Shown: positions 3,777 through 62,536 of the stretch, piece after piece
Layout: the number at the start of each line of letters is the position of its first letter
How positions within the stretch are numbered: position 1 is the stretch's first letter
From: Siphonodentalium dalli
Lineage: Eukaryota > Mollusca > Scaphopoda > Gadilida > Siphonodentaliidae
Direction: 5' to 3'
DNA: 64,000 nt
NCBI GenBank assembly: GCA_032622095.1
Contig: CP136063.1
Coordinates: 73,013,980 to 73,077,979 of the forward strand
Notes under the pieces: model-generated
Database searches by the model: none
Seen by the model: only the letters and a program-made list of their open reading frames with translations
What the model was told of the DNA's origin: nothing
Translations under genes and position numbers: made by a program

Positions 3777-5124
3777 GTATGTTAAGTGTATTTTCTCATT
3801 TATACATATTGCCCATGAATGAATCACAGTGTAGTTGGAGATATGAAGGCTTGTATGAATGAACCACCGATCCGATGGGGTAGGCATATTCCACCCCGTG
3901 CCCACGCGTAAACATCTTTTGTGTGTACGTTTCACGGTTTGGTGTAACATAACCATTTGCCATCCCCTGCAGTGTTAATTAGTTGTACTCTGTTTGGGAC
4001 GATGAAGATAATACTTCGACTCTATTTACTTTTAAAGAAACACATTTATGAATACAGGTGCAGTATATATTTGTCCATCTACATTGATGCCAGGATAAAT
4101 GAATTCATAAATATATATTGTTAAAAACGCATCGGAGCATTTACCCTTCATATAATATGTGGATTATCCAACCAAGTTAAAACAGTTGTACATCGGAATG
4201 GCCTATGAGTCTTTTGGAGTAATTGACCTGTAACAAAGCCGACGAGATATAATAAAAGTTCAGGAGCCCTATGTAATGAGGGAAATGTTCAGATAATACG
4301 TTCAACTGCTCGTCCAACGTATCCTCGTGCAAATAGTTTCACATATTCACATAGGTGCGTATGGAACTTGTTTTATTATGAAATAAGCTCATACAGGACT
4401 AAACCCGGTATTTTGTTGAATGGCGCGGGCCGCAGTGAAAACACATCAGGCCAACATCATCCATACATCACACGCACTTACGACGTGACGTAACCAATAT
4501 AACTCCTGACCAATAACCTGTGTCACGTGCCATGGAAATGTCAACTGAAGATGTACTCGTTGCTCTCAAAAATATCCCCTCACGTTGAGCCAGTTAAAAA
4601 ACACAGTATATTCGTTTTGATGCTATTGCTCCAAAGGAAACAAATTCGCATGTTTCTTCGAAACAAAAAATGCAAAAGTTAAACCAACGTTTCGACTCCC
4701 AGAAAGAGATGTTCGTCTTTAAACTTTCAAAGTTTGACCATATGCTTGATGAGAAACGATTAACTCTAAAATACACCAAACGGTATTTGTGAATTGAAAC
4801 TGTCGGTTGACATTCTGTCTCACCCACCCGACCGCCAGCTTGACACATTGATAGAGACTCATACAAATTTGTCAACTGTTAACCTTGTCGATGCAAAAAT
4901 CTGATGTTAGAAACTACTTTACATATTTCGATGTGCAGCCTTGGTAATCTTATTTTGTTTTTGCCATTATGTATTCTTTTACTAATGTTTGCGTTTTATA
5001 TTATGCTTGCATCACACTAGTAAGTTCTTGAACTTATATTCTTGACTCAAAGGGGAATCATTTCCTCTTGTGTGCTTTTATTTGAACATAGCTCATTGTG
5101 TTAATATAATACAGTGTCTGATTA
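3777..5124. other. Start of the 14.4 kb last receptor intron; no gene seen
   Basis: Intronic sequence without a supportable coding region. A block at about 4310-4460 (with CATATTCACATAGG and GGCGCGGGCCGCAGTG) recurs in diverged form at about 17355-17500, 21960-22160 and 24815-24990, so it belongs to a dispersed repeat. Confidence 0.6.
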
Positions 5125-5275
5125 AGCTACGCAGTTGCTTCGCTTCAATCTTTTTTGATACCTGATTGTGTTCTTGTACGTGATATGGTATAACTGCTAA
5201 AAAACGAAGTTAAACCTTCAATCAATCAGTCAGTCAACCAACCAGGCAGACAATCAACCAATCAATCAATCCGTA
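5125..5275 (+). repeat. LINE/SINE 3' tail remnant with CAAT repeats
   Basis: The GCAGTTGCTTCGCTTCAATC start, a GTGATATGG...GCTAAAA-ACGA block and a GTTAAACC motif followed by CAATCAATCAGTCAGT mirror the 3' UTR of the ORF1-only LINE at 24.7 kb. The body is missing or too diverged to follow. Confidence 0.6.
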
Positions 5276-6870: not shown

Positions 6871-8230
6871 CCCAGATACCAAGCACTCGAAATTACGAAA
6901 CATGGCCGACGGCAAATTTAACAAAGTGGCATGTTAAGATTCCAAATGATGCATTGAATAAAGTACAAAACCACTCCATTGCATAGTGATAATAAAATAA
7001 TCCGAATTATACATGCATTACTTTTATTAGTATAGAACCTTGATCGTGATTTTGTACTTAAATCAAAGTTTAAGATCTCGATTTCAGGATTCCCTGTTCC
7101 CTGCATGTGGAGTAAAATTGGTCTGAATGTCCAAAAATAATTTCTTAATTTCAAATAATTTGTGTGAAATATTATTAAAGTAAACATAAATCAAACATCT
7201 TGAAACATGTCTGGATGAAACACCAATCGATCTAGAATAGCCCGATAAATAAAAAACTGCCTTGCGATAAATCACAAACCTTTGCGAATCGCAAACTACT
7301 TTGCAATAAATATATGCAATTTAGTGTAAAGGTTTTCGATTGATTACAAAAGGTTTGCGATTAATTGCAATGGTTTGTGATTTATTGCAGATATATTTTC
7401 ATGCATTGGCATTAATGGACTTGAACCGTATAAATATAAATATAATCCGACATCTTCAACATTCGCATCTATGCGTCAACAAGTCAATGTTATTGCCTGA
7501 TCACCAGAGCCATATAATGTAGAATTTCGCTAATACGGTTTCCAGTTATGGATCAGGTTATTTCCTAGCAAAGCGGAAATAGCCGAATCGCTCAGAATGA
7601 TACTAGTAGCCAGACATGTTTTGATAAGAACATGAAGCATCTGGACATTGGAATGGTCTACATGTTCATGTATGTATACAGCTAAGCTCTAATTGACCCC
7701 CCCCCCTTAACGACATTGGCCACCAATATTACCACGTTGTTGATATTATTAACATTGATTAATCCTACAATGGCCGACATTTGAACCATTTTAAAGCCAG
7801 CATTATAACCACCACATAGTGTATATTTCTGGCATGGCTTTACGCTGCCTTGGTAGTTGTGAATGTCGGTCAGTGACCAACTTTGAATGTTAATTAAACC
7901 GTAAACAAATTATTAATTGAAATATTGTTTTGTGTATAGTTAATATGGTGCATGGAGCTGACGAAAAGCTGGACTGGGTGTTTACAAGGTGGCCATGTGA
8001 CAAATTAGTGCGGAGTACAGTGGTCGCAAAATATTATTAATAAGACTGTATATAGATTATCTGTGGTTGCCACATATCAACCACTTGACCATGGTTGAAC
8101 GCGGTATGGTATAACCGGTGTCATTAACGCCCTACAACCTTGTTAATGGTGGTGATTAATTAGAGCATACCGGTAGCTGTAGTACGTTACTAAAAGCTTG
8201 CGATTGATTCAGTTATAACGTGTGTCCCAG
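6871..8230. other. Intron sequence between repeat blocks, no gene
   Basis: Includes short TTTGCGATT/AATCGCAAA runs near 7270-7390 (CGATTAATTGCAATGG type) that form weak inverted repeats. No supportable coding sequence. Confidence 0.45.
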
Positions 8231-20964: not shown

Positions 20965-21787
20965 AACCAAAACGGTTCCCAGGTTTTGAACTGGTTGAAT
21001 GTTATGGGAATTTATCGGCGTAGCCAGAGTACAGCTTTGATGCATGATCTACGTCAAAATCAGTTATCAAATTTGACTCATAGCAATATAAGATTAGGAT
21101 TGCAAACTATGTGTATAGCATATCTGGTCATGTAGTAGCATCGTTTTGGTATCAAAATTAAAACTTTGAACCTTTCAAATAAATTCGTAGTAAACACCAG
21201 TATTTCTGATTGCCACACGCCAGAAAACAAGAAGATAGTTGTAACAATCATAGATTTAGGAACATGTCCATATCTGAGCAAAGCTCGAGTGCGAATGAAT
21301 CAACTATGACAACACCAGTCGCCACTTAGACATGCCCTCACTCGAGATTATTTACAGCTCCACCCTTTGACTGATTGTCTGATAATTCTAAACCGCGAAT
21401 AAGAAAAGACGGACTCGTCATCTCAAGTTTATCTGGACCGCCGAATTATATGGTTTACTTGCCGGTTTAAGCTTATACAACGCAAAAACAATATTAAAAT
21501 TGACAAAAACTTATCCCTATATGTGTGACTGCTGTCGTAATTATTGATTTTCGCAATCAATAAAAGGAGGTTGTCCGCATTAGGAAAGTACGTTTAATTA
21601 TCTGGACGATACAGAGAGACTATTGCTAAACCACTGGTCTAGCTAGACCAGGTTTAAACCAGAGATAACGAATGTGTCACTTTTACCTGCGGTCTCTGGT
21701 TTAAACCACGGATGTTGCTGACTCACGGTGGTTTAAACCTAGAGGTTTACGTAGACCATGTTTAAACCTGAGATGATGAATTCGGCC
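20965..21787 (-). mobile_element. TTTAAACC-rich TIR element, copy 1 (one end preserved)
   Basis: The right end GATGATGAATTCGGCC, preceded by several GGTTTAAACC blocks, and the interior (GGACCGCCGAATTA, GATTTTCGCAATCAATAAAA, CAGCTCCACCCTTTGA) match copies 2 and 3. The left end cannot be found, so the copy is truncated. No transposase gene. Confidence 0.75.
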
Positions 21788-21959
21788 AATATATTCACGC
21801 ACTTTATAATGTGGTTTCACTATGGCCCACGCTATTCAACGGAATAACGGGTATACGCTCATTATGGACTCATTTCAGAATCGATATGTTTTCCAGCCCC
21901 ATTTACGTTCATTCAGAGCGTATTTCAAATTAATATGACGCAAACATGGGCGTATTTGG

Positions 21960-23539: not shown

Positions 23540-24436
23540 ATGTGTAATCAAGGAAACAATACTGTGGCCGAGATCATTCTACCTGTGTGTTTGTCATTTT
23601 TGAAAAGCACCCCTCCTCCAAATCCATTACGATGTTTTAAATGCCAGGGCTATGGCCATGGCCATGGCCAGGAACATTGTAACACTAAAGAAACCATTTG
23701 TGCACGCTGCTCTGTTTCTGGTCATGATTATAAGGATTGTACAAATCCTAAAAAATGTTCGAACTGTCAAGGTTCACATGCTGCAATGGATCGTTCATGT
23801 CCCATCTGGGACTATGAATTCAAAATACAAAGATATAATGCTGAGAAACATTTATCGTACATGGATGCTAAGAAATTAGTTGGTGCCAGACCATCAATTT
23901 CTCAAGTCACAAACTCGGCAGCCGTTTCTAAGAAAAAGTATGTTAATGCCAGCACTCAGACAGAGAATCAAAGAAAATCCGTCAGTATATCATTAGCAAC
24001 ACAAGTTCAAGAGACTGATATTCCTCCTGTTCCTGAACCTGTCTCACAGGAAATGGATACACCTACTCCAGTTTTTACATTTGCTTCGAAACCAACTAAG
24101 GATGTCGATCCAGTTCTAAAACAAAAATCTCCAAGGTCTGTCAAGTCTTTTAACTCCGAGAATAAGAGATTGAACTTTGAGCATTCAAAGTTTCAGGAGA
24201 TGTTTCAAGAGAAGGGCTCATCTTTGGATGAGTACACCGTTGCAATTTGGCATGAGGCTTGTTTTTGGGCGAGGAAACGCATATGGACGATTCAACCACC
24301 CGATTGTCAACTTGACGAATTAATTGAAACTCATGCCAGATTCATCAGATATCATACATATCTGATCAATCTTCCCAGGAGCGAGTATAACAACTTACTC
24401 AACTACTGGAAATATTTTAATATACGAAAGTATTAA
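23540..24436 (+). pseudogene. LINE ORF1 (Gag-like CCHC zinc-knuckle protein), copy A, 5'-truncated
   Basis: From about 23617 the frame encodes the C-terminal half of a non-LTR retrotransposon ORF1. It has three zinc knuckles (CFKCQGYG..., CARCSVSGHDYKDC, CSNCQGSHAAMDRSC), a basic segment, a Pro/Ser-rich linker and a C-terminal block ending NYWKYFNIRKY. The first 26 codons of the frame lie outside the LINE. A GGCCAT duplication adds Gly-His inside knuckle 1. ORF1 proteins bind element RNA in retrotransposition particles. ORF1 is followed directly by the 3' UTR, with no ORF2. It is uninterrupted for 270 codons, unlike copy B. Confidence 0.85.
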
Positions 24437-24744
24437 TACAGTATTTATAATTGATGAAAACATTTCATGTAGGTTTTATGTTTGCTGTTTTCTAAATAGT
24501 ATTGCTATGTGTTCTGATATTTTGTTTTATATATGTTTGCAGAATGGTCAGTTTCTAAATGGTTCTGGCCCCAACCGAGCACCTCTGATTTAGGTGTTTT
24601 AGTTGTATATAATTTGTTTAGTTTTAGTCTAATTCATTGTTATTTCTATTCACAGCTTCACTCAATTTTGAAAATCTGTTTCTTCTCGTAGTGATATGGC
24701 TTTGTTGCTAAAACGACGTTAAACCACAACCAATCAATCAATCA
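24437..24744 (+). repeat. 3' UTR and AATC tail of LINE copy A
   Basis: About 300 bp shared with copies B (33143-33461) and C (52310-52600), ending GCTAAAACGACGTTAAACC and then CAATCAATCAATCA. The 13 bp after the tail (24745-24757) equal the target-site duplication defined in copy B. Confidence 0.85.
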
Positions 24745-24757
24745 ACTGCCGATGCAG

Positions 24758-26810
24758 GTTAAGTTAAATTTATATTTATAACATTTATTAACGCAAATGT
24801 TAAGTGCCGCCATTATACTACTCCCCGTCGCATTTAATAAAAATAAATCAACACACCATATTACGCTCTTTATGTTTCCACAGTGGTCCGCGCCTTAAAA
24901 GACAATTTCAGAATCAAATAGGTCCAATATGAACCTATTTGCACGAGGAAATGTTGGTGTGATATTCATTAATTTTAGTGCAAGGAATGTGTCCTGATCA
25001 TACTCATGTGGCTTCTTTTAACGGACATGTCTGCCGAATTTGGAGGATGTATACGATAGGCTGATCGATACACAAACTATTGATATACCGGCTTCGTATG
25101 CATCTACAAATACTTGCCATGGTCACAGGATTTTACAATTGTTGGTGCGCCAAAGTGAAAGAAACGCTCTTTATTACTACCATATCAGGAATAAAATAAC
25201 ATGAAACGCTCTTTTCTGTTAATCAAACTTTTCGTTTGTCAGGTAACAATGGCGGTCATGATTACATAGTCGGCCAAGAACACACTTAACCGTGGATATA
25301 TATTTATTATGCTCAACAACAAATGGTCAATGGCGATTTTCTTTTGAAGCTAATTACGAACAGAGTGACTCTTCGCGACTAAATGGTACTGACAGAGACA
25401 TATTACCATTCGGATGTCACACGCGCGGTTGAAACCTATGAAGCACGTGGGCGGGGTTAGCTCCTACAAACAATGCTCGTTAATGATGTTCGTGGGGCCG
25501 AATAATAGTTGGTGTCGGCTTGTATGGACCATTCCACATGTTTTATCACTCTGAAACAAATTGACAACATGATTCTGTAATTAACCCCAACTGAATATAA
25601 TTCTGAATTGTTTTCGCCCGTGTATGCGCGGAATGTTTTCACACATCCCTATTATTTGCTATCAAATTTGAACGATTTTCGTTGAAAAAAACGCCACCAT
25701 TGACCATCTTTTAACTTACTCTTTGTATGACTAAATCCTTTGGCGAACCATGCAGGCAACATCCCTAGTCCGATCGTCACCAAACTTCACATGGATGTTC
25801 GGGTAACCTCGAGTTTTCTTGGGCCTTAGTGTTTCCGGTTTTAGTGATTTCTGAGCAGTTTACTTAGGCATTCTTCAAATACTAAACAGGCCGTTCGTTT
25901 AACTTATTATCTGATGACATTAATGTGCAAATGTGTTTCACTTAGTACAACAAATATATTAGATGTGATAAAGCTGGTTTAAAGTTAAACAGTTGGGCTT
26001 ATGGTTAGCCACAACCCATGGCAATCAGGTTATATTCACTATTGTTAGCATGTTTCTTGCAAAGGGGGGAGTTGGTTTGAGTGTGTAAATCCAACGTCGG
26101 TGAACATTTGCAACAGTTGTTAAATTTAAGCGGAAACAAGCGTTTCTTGGGAGATACGTTAAGGACTTATACCAGGTTGCAATTGATCAGTGAAACTGAA
26201 TGTTCCAGCTGGGCGATATTCAATGAATAAGTCGCAATGGGCACGTCACAATGCACGTTATTTCGTATTGATTATGATCGATTGTCGCCTTAATTACCGA
26301 TACATATACACTTGCACACCTGGTCTAATAATGATAACAATGACTACTGGATATCAAGTATGACGTTTTATCAACTTGGAGCCCAACTCTGATAATATTC
26401 TAAGCAATCTCACAAATGTTGATACTTTTCTCACAATTCCCGACACATGGGCATGTTTATCATGCGTTAAACGCGACAAACAGATAGTGGTCAATTAAGC
26501 TTTAATTGATGGTAAACTATCTTAACGCTTTCTGAACGACAATTTAATATTATATGTACGTAAGGACATTATGAAATGTTTTAGTTGATATATGTCAATA
26601 TGATATATATCAAGTCTTAAAATTTGACGAAACCTTATTTCAAAGATCATCTTATGTTTTACTCTGAAACAATCATATGCTTAAAGGGGACCGTCGGGTT
26701 ATTGACAAAGCGATTTTGTTCAGATTTTTGCACGACGATTTAGTGAAAACTATACGATACCAGTGTGATGAAGACATATGGCAAATGAAACATTTCAATG
26801 CTAACTCACC
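24758..26810. other. Non-coding part of copy A
   Basis: Shared with copy B (33475-33588, 35530-37234 and 38776-39099). It includes the dispersed repeat at 24815-24990 and the empty target TTT (24869-24871) of the element inserted in B. No exon was recognised. Confidence 0.65.
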
Positions 26811-26813
26811 AGA

Positions 26814-27062
26814 TTAGTGTCGATAGGACTCATGCCGCACCCGCGTTCCATCCAGGTATTGGTATCCCCCCTGGCTAACGTTGTACGCATACACCCTGTA
26901 GTTAACTGTCAAGTAACCGTGGAGGAGGCGCTGCGTGTGGGCGCGATACCTTGGGTTGTATAGACGCATGTGGTTGGCCCAGTCAAACAATAATACCGGA
27001 TCCAGTCCATTAACCCACACAAACGCTCTTAACTTGGTGCGATCCAAATACGAGGGGTTGAC
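26814..27062 (-). pseudogene. Exon of unrecognised gene family, second FVWVNGL copy
   Basis: On the minus strand, after CTTTGGTAG, 82 codons run in phase 0 to a TAA: NPSYLDRTKLRAFVWVNGLD, DWANHMRLYNPRYRAHTQRL, LTVNYRVYAYNVSQGGYQYL. The same pattern recurs at about 27950-28220 (RVKLCAFVWVNGLNP, IAHMERLFGYFVD, EYIDAS) and in copy B at 39530-39790. The exon therefore exists as a tandem pair in A, and this member was lost from B. Family unknown and no catalytic motif visible. The frame is intact, so it could still be coding; a GTGAGT follows the stop. Confidence 0.5.
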
Positions 27063-27079
27063 CTACCAAAGGGTCTTCT

Positions 27080-27360
27080 AATATTGGCCGAACCTATCAA
27101 CTCTTAGATTAGGGCCCATTTGGTAGGAGTCTCCCGGTTTCGATTCCTTAGTAGCTGCGCCCCACATTCATTGTTACAATGACTAACTGCACGCAAATCT
27201 ACAAGGTCATGTGACCTTCAAATATTGCGGCACGGCTGGACTCACACAATTGGCAAATAGACGGTTACCTAACGTCATGGAGACCTTCGGATTATGGGTG
27301 AAGAGGAGCTGTAAACAAAACTGAAAGCGACATTAAACATCAATCAATCTATTTAGAGCT
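27080..27360 (+). repeat. SINE-like sequence with a possible Pol III B box
   Basis: GGTTTCGATTCC near 27137 resembles a tRNA B box (one extra base). The block ends GAAAGCGACATTAAACATCA followed by ATCAATC, the common mollusc SINE/LINE tail. It lies in the segment found only in copy A. Confidence 0.4.
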
Positions 27361-27914
27361 CAACCCGAATATCATTAAGTTTGGTGATGATCCGATGAGG
27401 CCTGTAGGATGTGCCAAAGGGAATAGTTGACGGATGGGCGGATGCATGTACGTACATCCACTCTCACGAGAACATACTTGTGGGGTGCGATGAATTAAAA
27501 ACAATCTGTTTATATAAAAACAAAATTATTTCTGATAAAGTCAGTTATTTCGTCGATATAATCATTACAAAATGATTGAACATTTATGAAATATATCCAT
27601 GCTAGTTAATCTTCCACATTACACAGATATGTTAAGAGTTCATGTATTTTGCAATTAGTGCTTAATACATATGGACATGTTAGTCGAATATGTCACCTGC
27701 GATTATGAGGCTGATTCCATTCCAACTTTTGTTGGTGTACTCCATATATTTCTAAATGTGATTAATTTTGTTACTCATTCTGGTTTTATTTCCGAAAAAC
27801 AAATAAGTTGATATACATGTAGCATTTATAAGGAAAACAAATCCAAACTCTGAACAAATGTTTTATGACACATAACTCACAAAATGCTTAACAAATTTGG
27901 GAAACGATTTATGT

Positions 27915-28440
27915 TCAATCAGGAACACGCGAAATGGACTTCTTTGTCTTACATATAACCCCCGAATAATACCGAGAACTTCCAACTTTAGTATCGGTGG
28001 ATGGAAGCATCAATGTACTCATACCGCCGCATGTCGACATGCCATGCATACAACTTTTACTTTTTGTCAACAAAATATCCAAACAATCTCTCCATGTGGG
28101 CAATGTCTGACGGTGCGTACATATTTCTCAAGAGTTACCCATTCCATAAACTGTCGGATTTAATCCGTTTACCCACACAAAGGCGCACAATTTAACTCGC
28201 CCCAAAATGTCTATGGTTCGACGACCAAAATGATCTTCGGATTTACTTAGGCCACTGCGACAAGGGCCCTACAGCGTCAACTATTTCCGTCCAAACTTGA
28301 TATTCGGTTCGATTAAAGTTGTTAATCATAGCTACTACTTTATGAGAATGACAAATATCGAGGGAAATGTCATAAATAGGGTTCACGGAGTTCAATTGAT
28401 GCACGTAATAGTCAGTAGCTACCCAAATGCAATTGCACAA
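27915..28440 (-). pseudogene. Decayed exon region of the same unrecognised gene, copy A
   Basis: Three frames are needed. 28440-28243 reads YYVHQLNSVNPIYDISLD to VDAVGPLSQWPK and stops. 28230-28150 reads FGRRTIDILGRVKLCAFVWV plus NGLNP. The homology to the exon at 26814-27062 then continues in a shifted frame (SDIAHMERLFGYFVD, YKLYAWHVD). A CCTAA|GTAAAT donor and an AACCATAG acceptor could join the first two pieces. Stops and a frame change indicate a pseudogene. Copy B (39440-40060) has different lesions. Confidence 0.45.
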
Positions 28441-28651
28441 TTTCCCACTTTAATTTGTCGATCTCATGCATGCATGGCTAACGATGCATGGTCGACAACT
28501 CCACGTGCGTTGAGTACTGATTTCGCACCATATGGGTGATAACTTCAATGTTCAGTTCATAATATGTTCAATACTCATCCATCATACAATACCATCAGAT
28601 ACTATAAATACTATCAGACAAAAATATCCCACCATCTTCATATAAATTTAC

Positions 28652-28796
28652 CTCAGCTCGACTATAGCTTGACAAAGCATCGGCAAGATAATCACGGTCT
28701 CTCTGTCTGAGGACCTCTCGATGATGTTCTACTGGTGGGCCATACACATAATCCATCACTGGTGGAAACATGTACTGGACCAAACTCATTGAGGAT
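28652..28796 (-). CDS. Exon of the unrecognised gene, copy A
   Basis: On the minus strand, TTTTTTGCAG|A opens a 145 bp exon ending GCTGAG|GTAAAT. It reads SSMSLVQYMFPPVMDYVYGP, EHHREVLRQRDRDYLADALS and SYSRAE. Its first base completes a codon left with two bases by the upstream coding segment ending at 30184 (GACTT|GTAAGA), which shows they belong together. In copy B the acceptor AG is TG and a TAG interrupts the frame. No known domain. Confidence 0.5.
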
Positions 28797-28997
28797 CTGC
28801 AAAAAATAGCACACATTAAAAGACCCATGCAACTGCATCAAGACACCAGTAAATAAATGTCTTTAATACAGGACCAAACAAATCAATTACGTTTAGAGGA
28901 TAATAATTGGTATTATAAACAGCAAGATTGTCAATGCATAATATACAATTTTTATGCTTTTATTTGATTTAACCATTTCATCTCTAATGTTATATTT

Positions 28998-30037
28998 AAG
29001 AAATAAATACACGGTGTAGAGGTGTGTATGGTCAAGTTGTACCACAACAAACTGATTGTAGGACGACGCGTAGCGGAGTCCTACAATCAGTTTTTTGTGG
29101 TACAACTTGACCATACACACCGATACACCGTGTATTTATTTCTTTTGTAATACGACCGAAAGTTTATGGTCACAATTCGACTGAATAGTCAACGAAATAC
29201 TGCGCTTTTTCGGTCTCAGGTGAGAAAACATTTCGTGGTGTAATTCGTATTGGGCGTACTCGATTTCTTTGCATGGAGTACTCTGGTAATGTCATGTCTT
29301 GTTATGAAATTCCCCCGTTGCCTTTTCGAGGCACCTCTTCTAAAAATAATCGTTGTGATTGGCTAAAAAACGATGTGTTTTCAGCGGCGCCCGTGTGTTT
29401 CGTTTCAATTGTACAGGAAATACGATTGCGGTCATTTCTGTTTTGAATTTTGTTGGGACAACATGAATATGATCATCGACTATGGACCATTTCCTTACAC
29501 AAAGCGATCTAAATGATCTAGTTTACTAAACTAATCTTATTCCCCTTCTGTACTGGTGAACAAACGCTTTCATTTTCAACTTGATTCCGAAATATCGAAT
29601 ATGATCGAGATTCGAATCGACGAATGCACAGCCCGGCCCCATGGATTTATTTTGTCATTTAATATACTTATTAAGTAACTTTCTTTGGTAGTAACATATA
29701 TCAATATACCATAACATCATTTGGACCATATTCATTGGCAACCAAACTGGTTTCAAACGACAAATCGCTAGAAAATTCGCAAGATTGCCAAGATGTAGCA
29801 AAATTCAAAGGGTTACGGGTGCGGGTGTACTCCGTTGATGCCCCGTTTGCGCGGAGTTAGAAAAGACGGGAAAAGTCGCGTGCGGCGATCTGAATAAACC
29901 GATTTTTTTCGTGGTACAATTGGAAAAAGTAGAATTGTACCACAAAACTGGAACGAGATAGCCATGGTAACTCGGGCCACTTGGCCAATCAGGACATGGC
30001 TTTTAAGCATAGTTAGGCAGGGTCGTATTACCATCTG
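28998..30037. mobile_element. Insertion found only in copy A: 147 bp palindrome plus an 11 bp TIR element
   Basis: Copy B lacks this segment, so its limits are known from the comparison. 28998-29144 is a near-perfect palindrome (AAGAAATAAATACACGGTGT arms, loop GACGCGTAGCG near 29074). Directly beside it, GTAATACGACC (29147-29157) is answered by GGTCGTATTAC (30021-30031), suggesting a TIR element. A second small hairpin (GTGGTACAATT/AATTGTACCAC) lies near 29912-29945. No transposase was recognised. Confidence 0.65.
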
Positions 30038-30183
30038 AGTTATTAGTGCACATTGTCAGATATTAACTTGAGAGTTGATGTTCCATTCCAATAAACACAC
30101 GACCATATCGAAAAGAAGCACATTTTAAGAATGATTCATAGTGATTCAGAACCCATAGTCTAATAAAAATAATTATTTCTTAC

Positions 30184-31297: not shown

Positions 31298-31368
31298 TAT
31301 ATGATGACAGTTGGTTTCATGCAGCTAACCTCTGACATGTTAACTCTACTGGAACACTGCCGATGCAG

Positions 31369-33461
31369 CCCCGTATGGGCCCCGAGGTAGAATAGGCCTA
31401 CCGCCCCAGTGCTAGGGGTAAAAATCCCCAATTGTGGCATCCTGTTTGCCGTGGGGTGCATCCCATGAGGTGTGGTGTAGGAGTCCTGGAGGTACTAGGG
31501 CGGTTGTATTACGTGAGGCATCGACCTGCGGATACAAGTTAGCTCATGGTCCTCTTCGGTCCTACATATATTCAAGACGGGTGGTTGAGTTGATCCGGCT
31601 CAATCAATCGGCTAGTCACGCCTCTCCACAGTGTTTCAGATTCATTTTTTGTTATATGTTGTCTTGCTCGTCTGATGTTTGAAGTATTGTCTCCTGTGTT
31701 TTCCTGTTGTGTTCGCCCTGATGATTGTTGAGTGTTGAATCATGTATTGTTCACGCCTGTCTGACCGTGGATATGTACCAAGAGGCTGCTATATGCTTCA
31801 GCTATGTACCAGTCTTCGGCCCGACCAGAATTTGAAGGGTAGTTCTCGGCGGCTGCTGTGCTAGTTGTCGATATTTTGCTCAAACAAAAAAACAACGTCT
31901 TGCACGCAAGATTGATGACTCGCCAAGTTCCACTTATGCTGTGGTATTCCCACAGTACTTGTTTCTTGGCTTCGACCCAAATGTGAAACAACCTTCTATC
32001 TTTGGTATCGATAAAACGCTACAAAGCATTGCTGGTCAATTGAAATCTGTAAAACCAATCAGGACTGGACCAATAAGTGGCTCTCTCTTGATTGAATGCT
32101 CAAAGAAAGAAATCTGATGCTCTGCTAGAGTTAACAACTATTGCACAAACACCAGTATTGGTTACTCCTCACAATACATTAAGTAGTAGCAGAGCTGTGT
32201 TGCGGTCCGCGATATAACTGATTCTTCGGAATCAGATATATTGGCGGAGTTGGCACCACAGGGAGTTACAAAAGTCCGTCAATTTACAAAAACTGTTGAT
32301 GATATTCGAGTTCCTCTGAATAGTTATCTCGTGACCTTCAATCGATGCGAACATCCACCGACATTGAATGTCGGGTACATAAAGATCGATATACGTACGT
32401 TCCAAATCCATTACGAAGTTTTAAATGCCAGGGCTATGGCCATGGCCAGGAACATTGTAAAAGTAAAGAAACCATTTGTGCACGATGCTCTGATTCTGGT
32501 CATGATTATAAGGATTGTACAAATCATAAAAATATTCGAACTTTCAAGGTTCACATGCTGCAATGGATCGTTCATGTCCCATCTGGGACTATGAATTCAA
32601 AATAAAACAATGTAAGGCTGAGAAACATTTATCGTACATGGATGCTAAGAAATTAGTTGGTGCCAGACCATCAATTTCTGAAGTCACATACTCGGCTGCC
32701 GTTTCTAAGAACAAGTATGCAAATGCCAGCACTCAGACAGAGAATCAAACAAAATCCGTCAGTATATCATTAGCAACAGAAGTTCAAGAGAATGATATAC
32801 AGCTACTCCAGATTTTACATTTGCTTCGAAACCAACTAAGGATGTCCATCCAGTTCTAAAACAAAACTCTCCAAGGTCTGTCAAGTCTTTTGACTCCGAG
32901 AAGCAGATATTGAACTTTGGGCATTCAAAGTTTCAGGAGATGTTGCATTTTGGCATGAGGCTTTGTTTTGGGCGAGGACACGCATATGGACGATTCAACC
33001 ACCCGATTGTCAACGGTCAACGAATTAATTAAAACTCATGCCAGATTCATCAGATATCATACATATCTGAACAATCTTCCCAGGAGCGAGTATAACAACT
33101 TACTCAACTACTGGAAATATTTTAATTTACGAAAGTACTAATACAGTATTTATATTTGATGAAAACATTTCATGTAGGTTTTATGTTTGCTATTTTCTAA
33201 ACGGTATTGCTAAGTGTTCTGATATTCTGTTTCATATGTTTGCACAATGGTCAGTTTCTAAATGGTTCTGCCCCAAATCGAGCACTCCCGCTATGATTTG
33301 GGTGTTTATAGTTGTATATAATTTGTTTCGTTTTAGTCTTAATTCACTGTTATTTCTATTCACAGTTGCTTCACTCAATGTTGATAATCTGTTTCTTCTC
33401 GTCGTGATATGGATTTGTTGCTAAAACGACGTTAAACCACAACCAACCAATCAATCAATCA
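31369..33461 (+). mobile_element. Full-length ORF1-only LINE, copy B, with 13 bp target-site duplication
   Basis: ACTGCCGATGCAG at 31356-31368 is repeated exactly at 33462-33474, directly after the AATC tail, so both ends of a 2093 bp insertion are defined. Inside are a 5' UTR of about 500 bp, then an ORF1 (relics such as FGIDKTLQSIAGQLKSVK, IRTGPISGSLLIECSKKE, ELAPQGVTKVRQFTKTVD, YVPNPLRSFKCQGYGHG, and the C-terminal WKYFN) and a 3' UTR. There is no endonuclease or reverse transcriptase. ORF1 is broken: the ATG region is deleted relative to copy D (60784), and several frameshifts occur. Confidence 0.85.
32241..33142 (+). pseudogene. Degenerate ORF1 of LINE copy B
   Basis: The segment before the zinc knuckles (GVTKVRQFTKTVDDIRVP, LVTFNRCEHPPTLNVGY) is the usual RNA-recognition-like middle of Jockey/CR1-type ORF1. 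Frameshifts then separate the knuckle part (32345-32530), the linker (32563-32859) and the C-terminal block (32940-33142). The first Cys of knuckle 1 is Ser here. Confidence 0.8.
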
Positions 33462-33588
33462 ACTGCCGATGCAGGTTAAGTTAAATTTATATTTATAACA
33501 TTTATTAACGCAAATGTTAAGTGCCACCATTATACTACTCCCCGTGGCATTTAATAAAACTAAATCAACACACCATATTACTCTCTTT

Positions 33589-35529
33589 GGTCGGATTCGT
33601 CATCTCAGGTTTAAACCTGGTCTACGTAAACCTCTAGGTTTAAACCGCCTTGAGTCAGCAAAATCCGTGGTTTAAACCCGAGACCGCAGGTCTAAGTGAC
33701 GCATTCGTCATCACTGGTTTAAATCTGGTCCATCCAGACCAGTGGTTTAGCAGTAGTGTCTCTGTATCGTCGAGATAATTAAACGTACTTTCATAATGCG
33801 GACCGGACCGCCTCATTTTATTGATTGCGAAAATCAATAATTACGACAGCGGTCATATTTTGATTGGAAATTTATAAGCGAGAAGCAATCACACATATAA
33901 AGCGTATGGGGATAAGTTTTTGTCAATTTCAATATTGTTTTTGCGTTTTATAATCTTAAACCGGCAACTAAACCATCTAATTCGGCGGTCGATCTAAACC
34001 AGCTTTATCGAGGCTAAACTTAAGATGACGAATCCGTCTTTTCTTCATCGCGGTTTAGAATTGTCAAACAATCAATCAAAGGGTGGAGCTGTAAATAATC
34101 TCAAGTGAGGGCGTGTCTAAGTGGTGACTGCCGACTGGTGTTATCAATATAGCAATATACATGTACATGTATAGTCTATTAATATTATATTTATTTGTAA
34201 TTGTACTTTCCATGTGTGTGTATTGTAAATAAAATTATCCTATCTTATCATGTCACAGTTGATTCATTCGCACGCGATGTTTGCTAAGATATTGACATGT
34301 TCCTAAATATATGAGTTTTACAACTATCTCGTGGTGTTTTTATTTGGCTTGTGGAAATCACAACTACTGGTATTTTCTACGAATTCATTTGAAGGGTTCA
34401 ACTTTTTAATTTGACACCAAAACGATGCTACTGCATGACCAGATATGCTATACACTTAGTTTGCAATCCTAAACTTATTTTGCTATATGAGTCAAATTTG
34501 ATAACTTATTTTGATGTAGATCATGCTACGCCCATAAATTCCCATAATATTCTACCAGTTCAAAACCTGGGAACCTTTTTGATTTTCTGCATGACGGGAA
34601 ATTTATGACATTGAAAAAAAATCAACGCATGTAATATATTTCTTTATTAAAAGCTGTCCCTCTGCATGGTTGCCCACATCCAACAGTTAAGATGCCACAT
34701 ATGGAGTGCAATCATAAGCAAATTGCCTTTACTTGACTGGCCTCTTGGTCCATGATTGACTCGATTATGGAGACTTTATTCAGCGCCAGAGGGGCTTTGC
34801 GCACATTTTGATCATTTGAACATTTCAATAAATTTTTTTTTACTTAAATTAGAAACAAACAAATGTTAATTTAAATTTCTAATTTTGTTTAGATTCAACA
34901 CCTTGCTCAATTTAACACAATTTTTTCATTTCTTTTATATTATAAAGCAAGATTTTTAAAACCTAACGCCGTTATACCACACGAATCACCACACCTAATT
35001 TAAATTGAAATCGGTCCATTGGTATTGGAGAACGGTTGTGAACAGACAAACGGACATACATATAGACAGCTCCTGTATACCCTTTAATATATACAGATAT
35101 ACACGTAAATACACAAAATTTTGTCTTTGCGGGTGAAGCATCTTGCAGAAATTTATCACAATCAAAGTGATGAACAGAGCGTGAAACTCGTGTTAAGAGA
35201 CATACCCTTTGTTAAATTGATTTAAACACAGATTGAGATCGGATTAATAGTCAATGAGCGATACTTGTTTCCCAATGAATAAATCTATTGAGCGTGTACG
35301 CGGTCACGATAATTTATGACTTGTCAATAACCATTATATCGGCCTATCTTTTGATCCGATTAGTAAGAGGGTAGTTTGATTGCATAATCATATCACCGTA
35401 TGGAGTTGTCAATTAGCTGGCAACTAAACGACAAAAACGCCCCCTTAGACCCGGTTTGGTTGGACCTCCAATGTAGGTTTAAACCAGGTTTAAACTCGGA
35501 GGTTTAAACCAGAGATGACGAATTGGGCC
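33589..35529 (-). mobile_element. TTTAAACC-rich TIR element, copy 2, 1941 bp, TSD TTT
   Basis: It starts GGTCGGATTCGTCATCTCAG and ends AGAGATGACGAATTGGGCC, with several GGTTTAAACC blocks inside each end. The orthologous site in copy A (CTCTTTATG, 24867-24874) is empty, giving a 3 bp duplication TTT (33586-33588 and 35530-35532). The interior carries AT-rich DNA but no transposase, so it is non-autonomous. Orientation is opposite to copy 3. A 3 bp TSD and a GGCC/GGTC terminus fit PIF/Harbinger-like elements, but that is inference. Confidence 0.88.
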
Positions 35530-37489
35530 TTTATGTTTCAACAGTGGTCCGCACCTTAAAAGAAAATTTCAGAATAAAATAGGTCCAATATGAACCTATT
35601 TGCACGAGGAAATGTTGGTGTGATATTCATTAATTTTAGTGTAAGGAATGTGTCCTGATCATACTCATATGGCTTCTTTTAACGGACATGTCTACGTAAT
35701 TTGGAGGATGTATACGATAGATATAGGCTGATCGATACACAAAATATTGATATACCGGCTTCGTATGCATCTACAAATACTTTCCATGGTCACAGGCTTT
35801 TTCAATTGTTAGTGTGTCAAATTGAAATAAACGCTCTTTATTACTACCATATCAGGAATAAAATAACATGAAACGCTCTTTTCAGTTATTCAAACTTTTC
35901 GTTTGTCAGTTAACAATGGCGGTCATGATTACATAGTCGGCCAAGGACACACTTAACGTGGATATATATTTCTTATGCTGAACAACAAATGGTCTATGGA
36001 GATTTTCTTTTGAAGCTAATTACCAACAGAGTGACTCTTCGCGACTAAATGGTACTGATTACCATTCGGATGTCACACGCGCGGTTGAAACCTATGAACC
36101 ACGTGGGCGGGGTTAGCATCAATAAACAATGCTCGTTAATGATGTTCGTGGTTGTGGGGCCGAATAATAGTTGGTGTCGGCTTGTATGGACCATTCCACA
36201 TGTTTTATCACTGAAACAAATTGACAACATGATTCTGTAATTAACCCCAACTGAATATAATTATGAATTGTTTTCGCCCGTGTATGCGCTGAATGTTTTC
36301 ACACATCCCTATTATTTGCTATCAAATTGAAAAACAACGCCACCATTGACCATCTTTTAACTTACTCTTTGTATGACTAAATCCTTCGGCGAACCTTACA
36401 GGCAACATGCCTAATCCGATCGTCACCAAACTTCACATTGATTTTCGGGTAACCTCGAGTTTTCTTGGGCTTATTGTTTCCGTTTTAGTGATTTCTGAAC
36501 GGTTTACTTAGGCATTCTTCAAATACTAAACAGGCCGTTCGTTTAACGTATTATCCGATGACATTAATGGGCAATTGTGTTTCACTTAGTACAACAAATA
36601 TATTAGATGTTATAAAGCTGGTTTAAAGTGAAACATTTTGGCTTATAGTTAGCCACAACCCATGGCAATCAGGTTATATTCACTATTGTTAGCATGTTGC
36701 TTGCAAAGGGGGAGACTTGGTGTGATTGTGTAAATCCAACGTTGGTGAACATTTGCAACAGTTGTTAAATTTAAGCAGATACAAAGTTTCGTGGGAGATA
36801 CGTTAAGGCCTTATGCCAGGTTGCAATTGATCAGTGAAACTGAATGTTCCAGCTGGACGATATTCAATGAATAAGTCACAATGGGCAAGCCACAATGCAC
36901 GTTATTTCGTATTATGATCGATTGTCGCCTTAATTACAGATACATATACACTTATATACCTGGTCTAATAATGATAATAACAATGGCCATTGGATATCAA
37001 GTATGACGTTTTATCAACTTGGAGCCCAACTCTGATAATATTCTAAGCAATCTCACAAATGTTGACACTTTTCTCACAATTCCCGACACTTGGGCATGTT
37101 TATCATGCGTTAAACTCGACAAACAGATGGTGGCCAATTAAGCTTTAGTTGATGGTAAACTATATTAACGCTTTCTGAACGACTATGTAATATATATTTA
37201 CGTAAGGACATTCTGAAATGTTTTAGTTGATATATACTACTCACATTTTGCTAAGGATCACCCATATATATTGTAATATTTTGTAAAATATACACTTTTT
37301 GGATAGGAATGGTCCGTTAAATTGTAGATTGTTATATCCTCTTGTTATTTAATGGGTGCTGCAACTGTCCATTGGCTTAGATTTCCTAAGTGGGAAGATG
37401 GAACAACATTACCCCCAATTTGACAAACACACAAGTCAAATGTATTGAAACGAATTTTATTCATTCGAACAACAATCTCAGTACTTGGT

Positions 37490-38030
37490 GTGACCTCCGC
37501 GAACGCTCACCACAACTTTGCAACATCTCTAAGCCCCATCCACCATGGTACGGACGTTGTCTGGAGGCAGGTTTCGCCATTCGACAACAAGAGTTGGCCA
37601 AGCTCTGACAAGGTTGTCGGTTGAACTGGTCGAGCCGTAATGACAGCCTGCAACCTGTCCCGAGCATGTTCTATGGATTTGAGTTCGAGTGGACTCGCTG
37701 GCAAGTCCATGCGATCTATTCCTCCTTCCTAAAGGATAACAGTTCATCAGCTTGGATCCGTTTGCTCCTGTATTATTGTCCATGAGAAACAAATCCTCGC
37801 ATACAGCTCCCGCATACGGCCCCACGATTGGATCCAGAATGCATGTCTACAATGTAGTCCATTAAGGTTTCTGTTCTGGATGACATACATGTCCTTGTCG
37901 CCGCCCAGAGTAATCCCTCCCCTGAGCATATCCGATCCACCACCATAATGGTCATGTTTCCTCTCCGTGCATCGGTGAACCTCCCATTCTACCTTTTCCA
38001 GACCAAAACACGTCTGTCATGGAAGTATGG
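37490..38030 (-). pseudogene. Tc1/mariner transposase, C-terminal part, left arm
   Basis: Minus-strand relics in shifting frames: GEGLLWAATRTCMSSRT, and in the neighbouring frame GGITLGGDKDMYVIQN, then FLMDNNTGANGSKL, PLELKSIEHARDRLQ and PTTLSELGQLLL. These follow the order of a Tc1 DDE catalytic domain (second Asp region, then the SPDLNPIEH-like block in which the run reads SPLELKSIEH). Not functional. Confidence 0.75.
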
Positions 38031-38084
38031 GTCCATTAGTAAACAGCACGGGTTACCATTGCTGCATTGTCCATTTCATACATA

Positions 38085-38530
38085 CCGTGTATGGGGAGGG
38101 ATGACTTTGGGCGGCGACAAGGACCTGTATGTCCTCCAGAACATTGGCATGCATTCTGGGTTCAATCGTGGGGGCGTATGCGGGAGCTGTACGCGAGGAT
38201 TTGCTTATGATGGGCAATAATGCAGGATCAAACCGACCCGAGCTGCTGAACTGTTATCCTTTAGGAAGAAGGAATAGATCGCCTGGACTTGCCAGCGAGT
38301 CCAACCGAACTCAATCCCATAGAACTTGCTCGGGACAGATTGCAGGCTGTTATTACGGCTCGACCAGTTCAACCGACCACCTTGCCAGAGCTTGGCCAAC
38401 ATATTGTTGTCGAATGGCGAAACCTGCCTCCAGACAACGTCCGTGCCATGGTCGATGGGGCTTAGAGATGTTGCAAATTTGTGGTGGACGTTCGCAGAGG
38501 TCACACCAAGTACTGAGATTATTGTTCCAA
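38085..38530 (+). pseudogene. Tc1/mariner transposase, C-terminal part, right arm
   Basis: Same sequence as the left arm, on the other strand and with different point changes: GGMTLGGDKDLYVLQN, then MMGNNAGSNRPELL, and in the adjacent frame IELARDRLQAVITAR. The Asp of the MDNN box is Gly here. Frameshifted and not functional. Confidence 0.75.
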
Positions 38531-39439
38531 ATAATAAAAGTCCTTTCAATACATTTGACTTGTGTGTTTGTACTTATTGAAATTCGTCAAATTGGGGGTA
38601 ATGTTGTTCCATCTTCGCACATAGGAAATCTAAGCCACTGGACATTTGCAGCACCCATTAAATAACAAGAGGATATAACTATCTACAACTTAACGGAGCA
38701 TTTCTGTCCAAGACGTGTGTATTTTACAAAATATTACATTATATATGGGTGATCCTTAGCAAAATGTGAGTAGTATATGTCAATATGATATATATCATGT
38801 CTTAAAATTTGACGAAGCCGTTATTTCAAAGATCATTTCATTTGAACAGCGGCTGGCAAAATATTCTATCCACATATTGCAAGAAAGATAACACAAAATA
38901 GTATGTTCGGAGCTTTAGAACATATAGAGTTGTTCTTCTTATGTTATACTCGGAACAAATCATATGCTTAAAGGGGACCGTCGGGTTATTGACAAAGCGA
39001 TTTTGTTCAGATCTTTGCAAGATGACTTAGTGAAAACTATACGACACCAATGTGATGAAGACATATGGCAAATGAAACATTTCAATACTAACTCACCTTA
39101 TTTCGTCGATATAATCATTCCAAAATGATTGAACATTTATGAAATATATCCATGATAGTTAATCTTCCCACATTACACAGATATGTTAAGAGTTCTTGTA
39201 TTTTACAATTAATGCTCAATACATATGGACATGTTAGTCGAATATGTCACCTGCTATTATGAGGCTGATTCCATTCCAACTTGTTTTGGTGTAATCCCTA
39301 TATTTCTAAATGTGCTTAATGTTGTTACTCATTCTGGTTTTATTTCTGAAAAACAAATAAGTTGATATACATGTAGCATTTATCAGAAAAAAAATCCAAA
39401 CTCTGGACTAATGTTTTAAGACACATAACTCACAAAATG

Positions 39440-40348
39440 CTTAACGAATTTGGGAAACGTTTTATGTTCAATCAGGAACACGCGAAATGGACTTCTTTGT
39501 CTTACATATAACCCCCAAATAATAGCGTGAACTTCCAACTTTAGTATCGGTGGATGGAATCATCAATGTACTCATACAGCCGTATGTCGACATTCCATGC
39601 ATACAACTTGTACTTTTTGTCCACAAAATATCCAAACAATCTCTCCATGTGGGCAATGTCTGACGGTCCGTACATATTTCTCAAGTTTACCCATTCCATA
39701 AACTATCGGATTTAATCCGTTCACCCACAAAAAGTCGCACAATTTAACTCGCCCCCTAATGTCTAAGGTTCGACGACCAAAATCATCTTCGGATTGCCTT
39801 AGGCCACTGCGACAAGGGTCCTACAGCGTCAACTATTTCCGTCGAAACTTGATATTCGGTTCGATTAATGTTGTTAATCATAGCTACTACTTTACGAGAA
39901 TGGCCAATATCGAGGGAAATGTCAAAAATAGGGTTCACGGAGTTCAATTGATGCACGTAATAGTCAGCATCTACTCAAATGCAATTGCACGATTTCCCAC
40001 TTTAATTTGTCGATATCATGCATGCATGGCTAACGATGCACGGTCGACAACTCCACGTGCGTTGAGTACTGATTTCGCACCCTATGGGTGATAACTTCAA
40101 TGTTCAGTTCATAATATGTTCAATACTCATCCATCATACAATTCTATCAGATACTATCAATACTATCAGACAAAAATATCCCACCATCTACATATAAATT
40201 TACCTCAGCTCGACTATAGCTTGCCAAAGCATCGGCAAGATAATCACGGTCTCTCTGTCTGAGGACCTCTCGATGATGTTCTACTAGTGGGCCATACACA
40301 TAATCCATCACTGGTGGAAACATGTACTAGACCAAACTCATTGAGGAT
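39440..40348 (-). pseudogene. Copy B of the unrecognised gene's 3' exons
   Basis: The exon equivalent to 28652-28796 is 40204-40348. Its acceptor AG has become TG, and CAG has become TAG at 40326-40328. The YYVHQLNSVNPIFDIS segment ends SQWPKAIRR-stop. The FGRRTLDIRGRVKLCDFLWV segment continues through NGLNP and then needs a frame change to reach MYGPSDIAHMERLFG and YKLYAWNVDIRLYEYID. Relative to A, the lesions fall at different places, so the copies decayed independently or one was already broken. Confidence 0.55.
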
Positions 40349-40703
40349 CAGCAAAAAAATAGCACACATTAAAAGACCCATGAAACTGCATCAAGACACC
40401 AGTAAAACATGTCTTTAATACAGGACCGAACAAATCAATTACGTTTAGTGGATACTAATTGGTATTATAACCAGCAAAAGTGTCAATGCACATTATACTA
40501 TTTTTATGCTTTTATTTTATTTAACCATTTCATCTCTAATGTTATATTCTGAATTATCAGTGCACATTGTCAAATATTAACTTGAGAATTGACGTTCCAT
40601 TCCAATAAACACATGACGATATCGAAAAGATGCACATTTTAAGAATGAACTCTCATAGTGATTCAGCACCCATAAGTCTAATAAGAATAATTATTTCATT
40701 TAC

Positions 40704-52165: not shown

Positions 52166-52600
52166 CTGCATTTTGGCATCACGCTGGCTTTTTGGCGAGG
52201 GATCACCTACTGGTGATCAGTTATAAATATTTAATAAATCATCCCACAAGCGAGTATGTCAACTTTGTCAGCTACTTCGAATATTTTAATATACGAAAGT
52301 ATTAATATATTATTTATATTTGATGAAAACATTTCATGTATATTTTCTGTTTTTAAAACAGAATTACTATGTATTTTGATATTCTGTTTTATAAGTGTTC
52401 GCACAATGGTCAGTTTCTAAATGGTTATGTCCCCAATCGAGCACTCCCGCTCTGATTTATGTGTTTTTATTTATAAATAATTTGTTTCGTTTTAGTCTAA
52501 TTCACTGTTATATATATGTTCGCAGTTGCTTCACTCGATTTTGAGCATCTGTTTCTGCTCGTCGTGGCATGGCTTTGTTGCTAAAACGACATTAAACCAA
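52166..52600 (+). mobile_element. ORF1-only LINE, copy C (5'-truncated)
   Basis: Homology begins in the C-terminal block of ORF1 (GCATTTTGGCATCA, TTTTTGGCGAGG), passes SEYVNFVSYFEYFNIRKY-like codons and the same stop, and goes straight into the 3' UTR ending GCTAAAACGACATTAAACC. It is a third, separate insertion in which ORF1 is joined directly to the 3' UTR. Confidence 0.8.
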
Positions 52601-53861: not shown

Positions 53862-54167
53862 TTAACGATATACAGGGGCCATCACAGAAAAGTCCATGTC
53901 CTCTGTTGGCTCCCACAATTTCCTCGAGACGTGCACACCTAAAACATGCCTCTTCAACTTCTTCGTTGTTGCGGAACAGCCGTCAATTTGATACGGGTAG
54001 ACAAGTTTGCGCCGAGTAGCTCGTCTCTTTCGGTTGTCCCGAGTTGATTTTGGAACCGGATCCGACGACTCATCAGTAGATTTCGGGATGGGCGATTCCA
54101 CAGTGAAGTTGGGCTGCTGCCTTGACTTTTGCTCATGCACTTCCTTCCCGAGCACACAATCACACAA
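53862..54167 (-). pseudogene. Lys/Arg-rich frame with a C2H2-like finger
   Basis: The open frame reads STDESSDPVPKSTRDNRKR, RATRRKLVYPYQIDGCSA and TTKKLKRHVLGVHVSR. The tail resembles the second half of a C2H2 finger (C-x7-L-x2-H-x4-H); the first Cys is replaced by Tyr-Gln. It overlaps the KptA-like frame in another register, so a frameshift may join the two. Confidence 0.35.
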
Positions 54168-54169
54168 TT

Positions 54170-54469
54170 CCGGGCCCTATATAACTTCATGCCTTTATGC
54201 ATACACTTCTCAACATCGGTCGAGATGACAACTTGACTGATGGACATCATGCCTGAAATGACAATAACCTTGTCATCCGGCTCAGCTGCAGAGAAGTGAA
54301 TGTACTGGCGCTTCGTCCTGCTCAACCCGGTGGTGCGAATCTTCTGCCAAGCTATTGCTGGTGTGCCATGTAGAACCCTCTCCAAATCCGTTGTGGACGA
54401 GAACTCGAATAGCTCCAGATCTGGTACGAAAAACTGACACGCCGGGTACCGGTTTCCACAGACCTCTCC
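54170..54469 (-). pseudogene. KptA/TRPT1-like RNA 2'-phosphotransferase (ADP-ribosyltransferase lobe)
   Basis: The minus-strand frame reads CQFFVPDLELFEF, VLHGTPAIAWQKIRTTGL, SRTKRQYIHFSAAEPDDK, VIVISGMMSISQVVIS, TDVEKCMHKGMKLYRARN, CVIVCSG. The order HGT..AW..I...GLSR..R..IHF, VISGM, D..K....G...R..N.VI is that of the NAD-binding lobe of Tpt1/KptA, the enzyme that removes the splice-junction 2'-phosphate from tRNA by ADP-ribosylation. The N-terminal RNA-binding lobe with its Arg-His pair was not found upstream, where stops occur. It is probably a gene fragment, a retrocopy or a captured domain. Confidence 0.65.
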
Positions 54470-59900: not shown

Positions 59901-60232
59901 GAAAAAAAAGTATTCAAGTTCGATAACGGGATAAAACACTTAAATATACAACACAAGATAAATATATTAAACGTAAAAATAAATGTTTGGGCCGGATTTG
60001 AAACATGCAGTTTCGTTCAGTAACAATATATGACATTTAACTAATTAATTATACACCAGAAAACTAGTCCTTGTGTTTATTTATTAACTATGTGACTTTT
60101 GTCCAGAACAAATCCGGATTTATGTGAATGTTGGGTCCGTGAGCATTAGTTAACACAAAACAACGCATTGAAGTTATTACGAATACAACTGTTAATACAC
60201 TGTTTGGGTACCAAACACAACAGTCATCATCG
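59901..60232. other. No gene recognised
   Basis: AT-rich intergenic sequence. Confidence 0.4.
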
Positions 60233-60833
60233 TGTGGGCCGGGCTAGAATAGACCTACCGCCCCATTGCGAAGGGTACAAATCCCCTAATGTGGCACCCA
60301 GTTTGCAGTGGGGTGCATCCCGTGAAGTGTGGTGTAAGAGTCCTGGGGTACTAGGGCGGTCGTATCACGTGATGCATCGACATGCGGATACGACTGAGCT
60401 CATGGTCCTCTTTGGTCATACATCTCTTCAATACGGGTGGTTGAGTTGACCCGACTCAAACAATAGGCTAGTCACGCCTCTCCACAGTGTTTCAGATTAA
60501 AAAAAATTATATGTTGTCTGATGTTTGAAGTATTTTCGCCTGTGTTTTCACGTATGATGTTTCTGTTCTCTCTTGTATCTATTGTGTTCGTCCTGATGAT
60601 TGTTGAGTGTTTAATCCTGTATTGTTTACGCCTGTCACTGTGGGGAGGTACAGGGAGGCTGCTATATGCAGTGGCTAAACTGGTGACTGCTTCAGCTATG
60701 TACCAGTCTTTGGCCCGACCAGAAATTGAAGTGTAGTCCACGGCGGCTGCTGTGATAGTTGTCGAATTTTTGCTTTTCATATGGCATCTCAAAACAAAAA
60801 ACAACGTCTTGCTCGTAAAAATGATGACTCACT
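60233..60833 (+). mobile_element. ORF1-only LINE, copy D: 5' UTR and start of ORF1
   Basis: It matches the 5' UTR of copy B (AATAGACCTACCGCCCC, GGTGCATCCCGTGAAGTG, CTCCACAGTGTTTCAGATT) and preserves the ORF1 start at 60781: MASQNKKQRLARKNDDSL. The LINE breaks off at 60834, where a TTTAAACC element begins. The rest is not found on the far side of that element, so a deletion or rearrangement accompanied it. Confidence 0.8.
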
Positions 60834-62191: not shown

Positions 62192-62536
62192 TAATTATTC
62201 TCAATCTATTCATACATCATTCTCCCCCGCCCATATTGTTTTGGGCGCCTTTATTGTCTTATCTATGACATGTATGATCTAACCCCCGTTATTGTATAAA
62301 GCCCTTAACTGGCTATTGAGAACAATTTGTCATATGTGCCCTACGATATGGTATACTACTGTTTTCTTGCTTTACTCCCTAATAACTATAACTGGGTCCA
62401 TAACCCGGCGCACAGTTGAGGTCGTGAAATGCCATGCATGAACCAGCATGTATCAATAATAAATCAACAATCCTTATTTAATGATGCATCCAAGATCAAC
62501 CCTATATTCTGGGACAGTTCAATCGGTCTGAATATT

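Follow-up and report, generated by a model that had tools for sequence, protein, structure and literature searches.

Within a 64-kb stretch of DNA, which we call the window and from whose first base all copy coordinates are counted, lies a complete insertion of a LINE-type element that runs from its first open reading frame, ORF1, directly into its 3′UTR. We refer to this insertion as copy B. Copies A, C, D and E lie elsewhere in the window, as does a SINE-like element that ends in the same way. The features are as follows.

31356-31368, plus strand: left target-site duplication of copy B, an exact 13-mer
31369-31884, plus strand: 5′UTR of copy B, its 5′ end as in copy D and parts of it matching the 5′UTR of the autonomous LINE L008
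31885-33141, plus strand: ORF1 of copy B, a decayed Gag with CCHC knuckles, from reading frames and homology to LINE ORF1
33142-33461, plus strand: 3′UTR of copy B, with terminal stem and AATC tail
33462-33474, plus strand: right target-site duplication of copy B, an exact 13-mer
23617-24743, plus strand: copy A, the same insertion as B through segmental duplication, its 5′ part missing
52166-52599, plus strand: copy C, independent and 5′-truncated; end of ORF1, stop at 52303-52305, 3′UTR
60231-60830, plus strand: copy D, 5′UTR and first ORF1 codons (ATG at 60781), then a DNA-transposon-like repeat
about 4661-5272, plus strand: copy E, a diverged relative; ORF1 C terminus in shifted frames, stop at 4945-4947, 3′UTR, AATC-type tail
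about 2797-3110, minus strand: SINE-like element with the 3′ end and stem of the LINE, its limits and tRNA-like head assigned by visual inspection

Copy B occupies 31369-33461 (2,093 bp) and is flanked on both sides by ACTGCCGATGCAG, an exact 13-bp repeat; the flanks searched on either side have no other word of at least eight bases in common. By our own arithmetic, chance identity of a 13-mer in these flanks has a probability of about 1e-4. The tail, AATCAATCAATC, is at 33449-33460. An initial annotation of this DNA had described an exact 13-bp duplication and an AATC tail, and both are in place. It had also held that the ends of copy B are intact, with which we agree: the duplication is present on either side, and the 5′ part aligns with copy D (76% over 615 columns), the two starting at about the same base. 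With a 5′ end at the same point as in copy D, copy B counts as full length. The stop codon of ORF1 (33139-33141) is followed directly by 320 bp of 3′UTR and tail, as had been claimed. ORF1 itself has decayed. The start codon of copy D is absent from B, so that the left limit of 31885 is approximate, and relative to copy A the frame has three gaps, of 1, 37 and 37 bases, and 2 inserted bases. Since copies C and E are incomplete on their 5′ side, copy B alone displays the whole design.

That copy B has neither endonuclease nor reverse transcriptase (RT) was a further claim of the initial annotation, and blastx and tblastn bear it out. When copy B was compared by blastx with L008 ORF2 and the RT portion of L002 (two autonomous relatives described below), no match fell below E=1.8, and the best value for an ORF2 remnant in any window copy was E=0.22. 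The L008 ORF2 and L002 RT, searched against the whole window by tblastn (E up to 0.01), picked up nothing but a minus-strand RT fragment (27-494). This is part of another LINE (3-533, minus strand; RVT_1, E 4.9e-16; FADD motif) whose downstream end points towards the window edge. We considered it as a partner for our element and set it aside: it is only 26% like the L008 RT, has FADD where L008 has YVDD, and its 3′ end would lie outside the window. The window also contains exon-like ORFs at 1077-2798 that match the ligand-gated ion channel domains Lig_chan-Glu_bd and Lig_chan, and an ORF at 53957-54469 (minus strand) that matches the Tpt1/KptA RNA 2′-phosphotransferase (PTS_2-RNA, E 8.6e-19).

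Copy A lacks the 5′ half of the element; its ORF starts upstream in unrelated sequence, at 23540, and stops at 24436. The 3′ flanks of A and B, target-site duplication included, are one and the same sequence, and the likeness continues for kilobases, blastn pairing 23617-24871 with 32401-33588, 24868-26593 with 35529-37235, and 27545-28996 with 39098-40548. Because this duplication-bearing flank is common to both and the likeness extends so far, A and B are a single insertion. The segmental duplication (23617-30179 and 32401-40697) spans roughly 6-8 kb at about 5% substitutions, and other insertions interrupt each side. DNA-transposon-like repeats with CGGATTCGTCATCTC.GGTTTAAAC-type ends occur in the window in both orientations (33586-35529, 60834-62194 and 21297-21796), one of them immediately adjoining the 5′ part of copy D. 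The open ORF of copy A made us consider a domesticated Gag gene, an idea we dropped, as A against B gives dN 0.064 and dS 0.038, without constraint and as expected for dead copies.

Could one deleted LINE copy, multiplied solely by segmental duplication, account for everything? For A and B the fit is exact: they share a flank, and the 41 substitutions in their aligned coding part (5.6%) compare with 87 in 1,742 columns (5.0%) and 76 in 1,454 columns (5.2%) in the long flank alignments. Short flank alignments of 63-179 columns gave 16/179, 4/114 and 2/63, that is 3-9%. Copies C and E, however, sit in flanks different from that of B and have diverged by about 17% and by far more, respectively, which makes duplication as the sole explanation scarcely credible.

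Copy C aligns through the stop codon into the 3′UTR (83% over 385 columns). The initial annotation, which placed this copy at 52166-52600, had it as independent and with the same ORF1-to-3′UTR junction. Both points stand, but the AATC tail is absent there and a target-site duplication, which we looked for, was not found. Copy E came to light through a search for the tail and is additional to the initial annotation. The protein of copy A finds it by tblastn as two pieces in order (E 2.6e-4), with a third, C-terminal piece readable at 4900-4944. The ORF1 C termini of A and E align with z=12.4, and the 3′UTRs of B and E with z=6.0 without the terminal stem and 11.2 with it (300 shuffles each). 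We looked for a target-site duplication around E and recognised none. The junction is not, then, unique to one locus: in three independent insertions (A/B, C and E), ORF1 runs directly into the 3′UTR. Copy D may be a fourth independent insertion, known from its 5′ part only; it stops inside ORF1, and no remainder was found beyond the DNA-transposon-like repeat.

The relatives that gave ORF1 its identity came from an odd quarter, eukaryote-like DNA inside assemblies labelled bacterial. A degenerate pattern for the knuckle region matched genome contigs at two places, L001 and L002. The first we rejected as a chance match: it lies at 7466-7492 inside a long minus-strand ORF, which we take to resemble bacterial GcpE, and at E 0.001 nothing in its genome matches ORF1. 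L002, a contig of 4,155 bp, comes from the assembly of a Solemya symbiont and has the look of host DNA; it contains ORF1, endonuclease and RT, and the element is cut off where the contig ends. Of 210 genomes from the order of L002, 4 had a match to the copy A protein at E 0.001, the L002 genome included, and among 369 genomes of its class the L002 genome was again the only match. Another class gave 0/397, to which we attach no weight since no genome there is known to match. One of the matches within the order, once extended, gave L008 (G015:C4:516000-530000), which is complete, with a 5′UTR, an ORF1 of 449 aa, an ORF2 with APE-type endonuclease, RT and RNase H domains, and a 3′ end of GGGACATTAAACCC followed by ATTCC repeats. 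It is a whole animal-type LINE in a 537-kb contig of a genome labelled prokaryotic, close to an ORF that, by eye, seems bacterial; probably the scaffold is a chimera or host DNA has contaminated the assembly. Weaker places (L004, L006 and L007) were judged by eye from ORF lists.

The ORF of copy A matches L002 ORF1 at 39% over 120 columns (E 3e-23), 17 residues of its unrelated start included, and two N-terminal pieces of copy B match the same protein (E 1e-6 and 5e-6). The LINE part of copy A matches L008 ORF1 at 33% over 177 columns (E 5e-25). Because these are the ORF1s of two autonomous elements, both with ORF2 directly downstream, the window ORF1 is a true LINE ORF1. By alignment it is homologous to the ORF1s of the I superfamily, to which L008 would belong from its combination of endonuclease, RT and RNase H. 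Homology extends to the 5′UTR, where three blocks run colinearly in B and L008, scoring 36.5, 34.6 and 22.9 bits. Among 200 dinucleotide shuffles of B the top score was 26.5 bits, which leaves the third block without significance by itself. Copy D gave only 22.9 and 22.0 bits against the same 5′UTR. Protein families and structures were less informative. Pfam returned no family for the copy A ORF up to E=1, PDB searches with ORF1 gave only retroviral nucleocapsids and unrelated proteins (E of 0.057 or above), and phmmer with the copy A ORF1 and one B piece found no LINE ORF1 protein in PDB up to E=10. An AlphaFold model of copy A ORF1, built on a three-row alignment, had a mean pLDDT of 49.7 and was set aside.

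Neither L002 nor L008 significantly matches the C terminus of ORF1. By eye we had thought it might be the end of an ORF2 fused by deletion (NLLNYWKYFNIRKY against HILSYLRSINFYRKI), but the best blastp value against ORF2 was E 1.8 and we abandoned the idea. This C terminus also bears on another explanation, in which transcripts of an autonomous LINE were spliced or otherwise shortened, losing ORF2 each time, and the copies were made from such RNAs, with no self-perpetuating family behind them. A fixed splice would repeat the junction, and the ORF1 stop does stand directly before the 3′UTR in all three insertions. Yet the C terminus of A/B, C and E, without a significant counterpart in either relative, suggests a lineage of its own, and A/B and E are strongly diverged; we consider retrocopying improbable.

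We gave more thought to several independent internal deletions of autonomous LINEs, each briefly amplified in trans with Gag as a passenger, in the manner of the SIDEs of Persaeus. The excerpt of PMC6740152 suggests that CR1 Zenon, a LINE, may have given rise to those elements four times or more. Purifying selection is missing from the A-B comparison, and A against C (dN 0.30, dS 0.34 over 45 codons) likewise carries no signal of selection; both comparisons speak for this reading. A and E, on the other hand, keep a colinear ORF1 C terminus with pN 0.32 and pS 0.60 over 67 codons (bootstrap 0.007), a difference that hints at constraint on ORF1 but comes from segments picked by protein similarity and from copies of which one or both parents may have been autonomous. 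On balance we think repeated deletion unlikely.

The 3′ end is where the element meets its neighbours. A six-pair stem just before TTAAAC is common to A, B, C, E, the SINE-like element and L008. Over these six sequences, whose rows are not all independent as A and B are one insertion, 31/36 cells (86.1%) hold standard pairs and 4 of the 6 pairs are changed on both sides; slid controls were 11-56% paired. Shuffles reached the observed value in 11/500 cases for cells paired, 11/500 for pairs changed on both sides, 4/500 for cells changed on both sides and 5/500 for the covariation score. For the measure of further pair types, the figure was 84/500. Folded alone, the 3′ ends of A, B and C and the stretch at 27260-27350 were not significantly more stable than shuffles. 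Outside the stem, the 3′UTRs of B and L008 do not match (z 1.65, and 1.24 with the stem included). L008 has thus kept the terminal stem, with compensatory changes.

The SINE-like character of the minus-strand element deserves a word of caution: Rfam gave no matches in the window at gathering scores and ARAGORN no tRNAs, so SINE heads here rest on the eye. A 719-bp segment on the A side (26826-27544), which the B side of the duplication lacks, has a LINE-like tail, AGCGACATTAAACATCAATCAATC, and by eye a B-box-like GGTTTCGATTCC. We rejected it as a second tail-sharing SINE, its upstream part failing to align with the stem, and dropped it before the pairs were counted, which took the alignment from seven sequences to six.

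An autonomous partner with the same 3′UTR was found neither in the window nor in the collections searched, which are not meant for animal genomes. The 3′-end pattern matched 0/210 genomes of one such collection, though it is so strict that L008 itself fails it. Viral contigs, again not a collection meant for animal genomes, yielded no relative to ORF1, ORF2 or 3′-end queries; one pattern scan matched 81 stretches, of which 0 were confirmed.

These observations take us beyond the initial annotation: A and B are one insertion, E is a third, ORF1 and 5′UTR, as far as the comparisons go, group with LINEs of I-superfamily type and not with L1, and both a SINE-like element and, as regards structure, an autonomous LINE have the 3′ end of our element. 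Probably, the copies represent a non-autonomous LINE family related to the I superfamily that keeps 5′UTR, ORF1 and a 3′ stem with a short tandem tail and does without ORF2. Its life cycle might run as follows. Transcripts would be made from a putative promoter in the element's own 5′UTR and translated into Gag, the RNA-binding ORF1 protein with CCHC knuckles, which may assist in mobilisation. The endonuclease and RT of an autonomous I-type LINE would then reverse-transcribe the element RNA at a nicked target, the ORF2 protein of this presumed partner recognising, and possibly binding, the 3′ end common to the element and the SINE-like element. The ORF2 proteins of two stringent-type zebrafish LINEs bind their own 3′ stem-loop (Hayashi and colleagues, excerpt of PMC4176376), so that, by analogy, a common stem would be a plausible means of borrowing RT.

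A bolder version, which we put forward tentatively and at somewhat less than even odds, is that this ORF1-only family is ancient and sustains itself as a lineage within the I superfamily. Its Gag, with a C-terminal region of its own, would have been kept by selection across ORF2-less subfamilies, packaging its own RNA, while the element competed with partner LINE and SINEs for one RT through the shared 3′ stem. Were a Gag-only LINE of the I superfamily real, ORF2 would have been lost and Gag kept in yet another branch of LINEs, in families that surveys starting from RT would miss. A single genome would also contain three sorts of element that use the same enzyme, the SINE-like element included, and the value of carrying one's own Gag would become directly testable.

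How does the element compare with known systems? HAL1 ends in a poly-A tail, the window element in (AATC)n. HAL1 derives from L1, whereas the window ORF1 has CCHC knuckles and matches LINEs with RNase H in ORF2. L1 is not known to carry RNase H; its occurrence in the ORF2 of the matching LINEs would point away from an L1 origin, judged from the alignments with L002 and L008. The likeness is nonetheless plain, for HAL1 too is a non-autonomous LINE derivative encoding only ORF1p, with several independent origins in mammals (excerpt of PMC5753468), and its hallmark, ORF1 joined to 3′UTR without ORF2, is present here in a complete insertion. The label "HAL1-like" of the initial annotation thus serves as an analogy for an ORF1-only LINE, but the relatives we found look like I-superfamily LINEs, not L1.

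HeT-A of Drosophila is the nearer invertebrate precedent. It encodes Gag and no RT, which must come from elsewhere (excerpt of PMC5537684), and the window element likewise has Gag without RT. HeT-A adds to telomere arrays, whereas copy B stands singly between exact 13-bp duplications in dispersed sequence, as after endonuclease cleavage, and the 64-kb window contains no head-to-tail array. SIDEs, which retain both ends of their partner LINE, presumably use its RT by way of the 3′ end (PMC6740152, in excerpt). Our element also has both ends homologous to an autonomous LINE, L008, and the interior lost, the 3′ homology consisting of the terminal stem and TTAAAC only. In the first Persaeus copy, 352 bp long, just the start and the end of the ORF survive, whereas the whole of ORF1 is kept here.

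Among molluscs, Nimb and Ingi are the only I-superfamily clades, apart from an unknown clade in one octopus, in the excerpted text of PMC10294476. That catalogue is of RT-containing LINEs and would not have shown an element lacking ORF2; on class II elements, its authors note that an ORF-based approach is unable to identify non-autonomous ones. No ORF1-only I-superfamily LINE was recognised among titles and abstract openings of the open-access literature (Repbase being outside this scope), and none is described in the excerpts of PMC11203168, on gastropod non-LTR elements, PMC10294476 and PMC11121367. The window element resembles the autonomous L008 in 5′UTR, ORF1 and 3′ stem, and differs from such LINEs in that the ORF2 with endonuclease, RT and RNase H is absent from the window copies. 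By analogy it would work like HAL1 or HeT-A and is neither; to judge by its appearance, it is a relative of an I-superfamily LINE that has ORF1 only.
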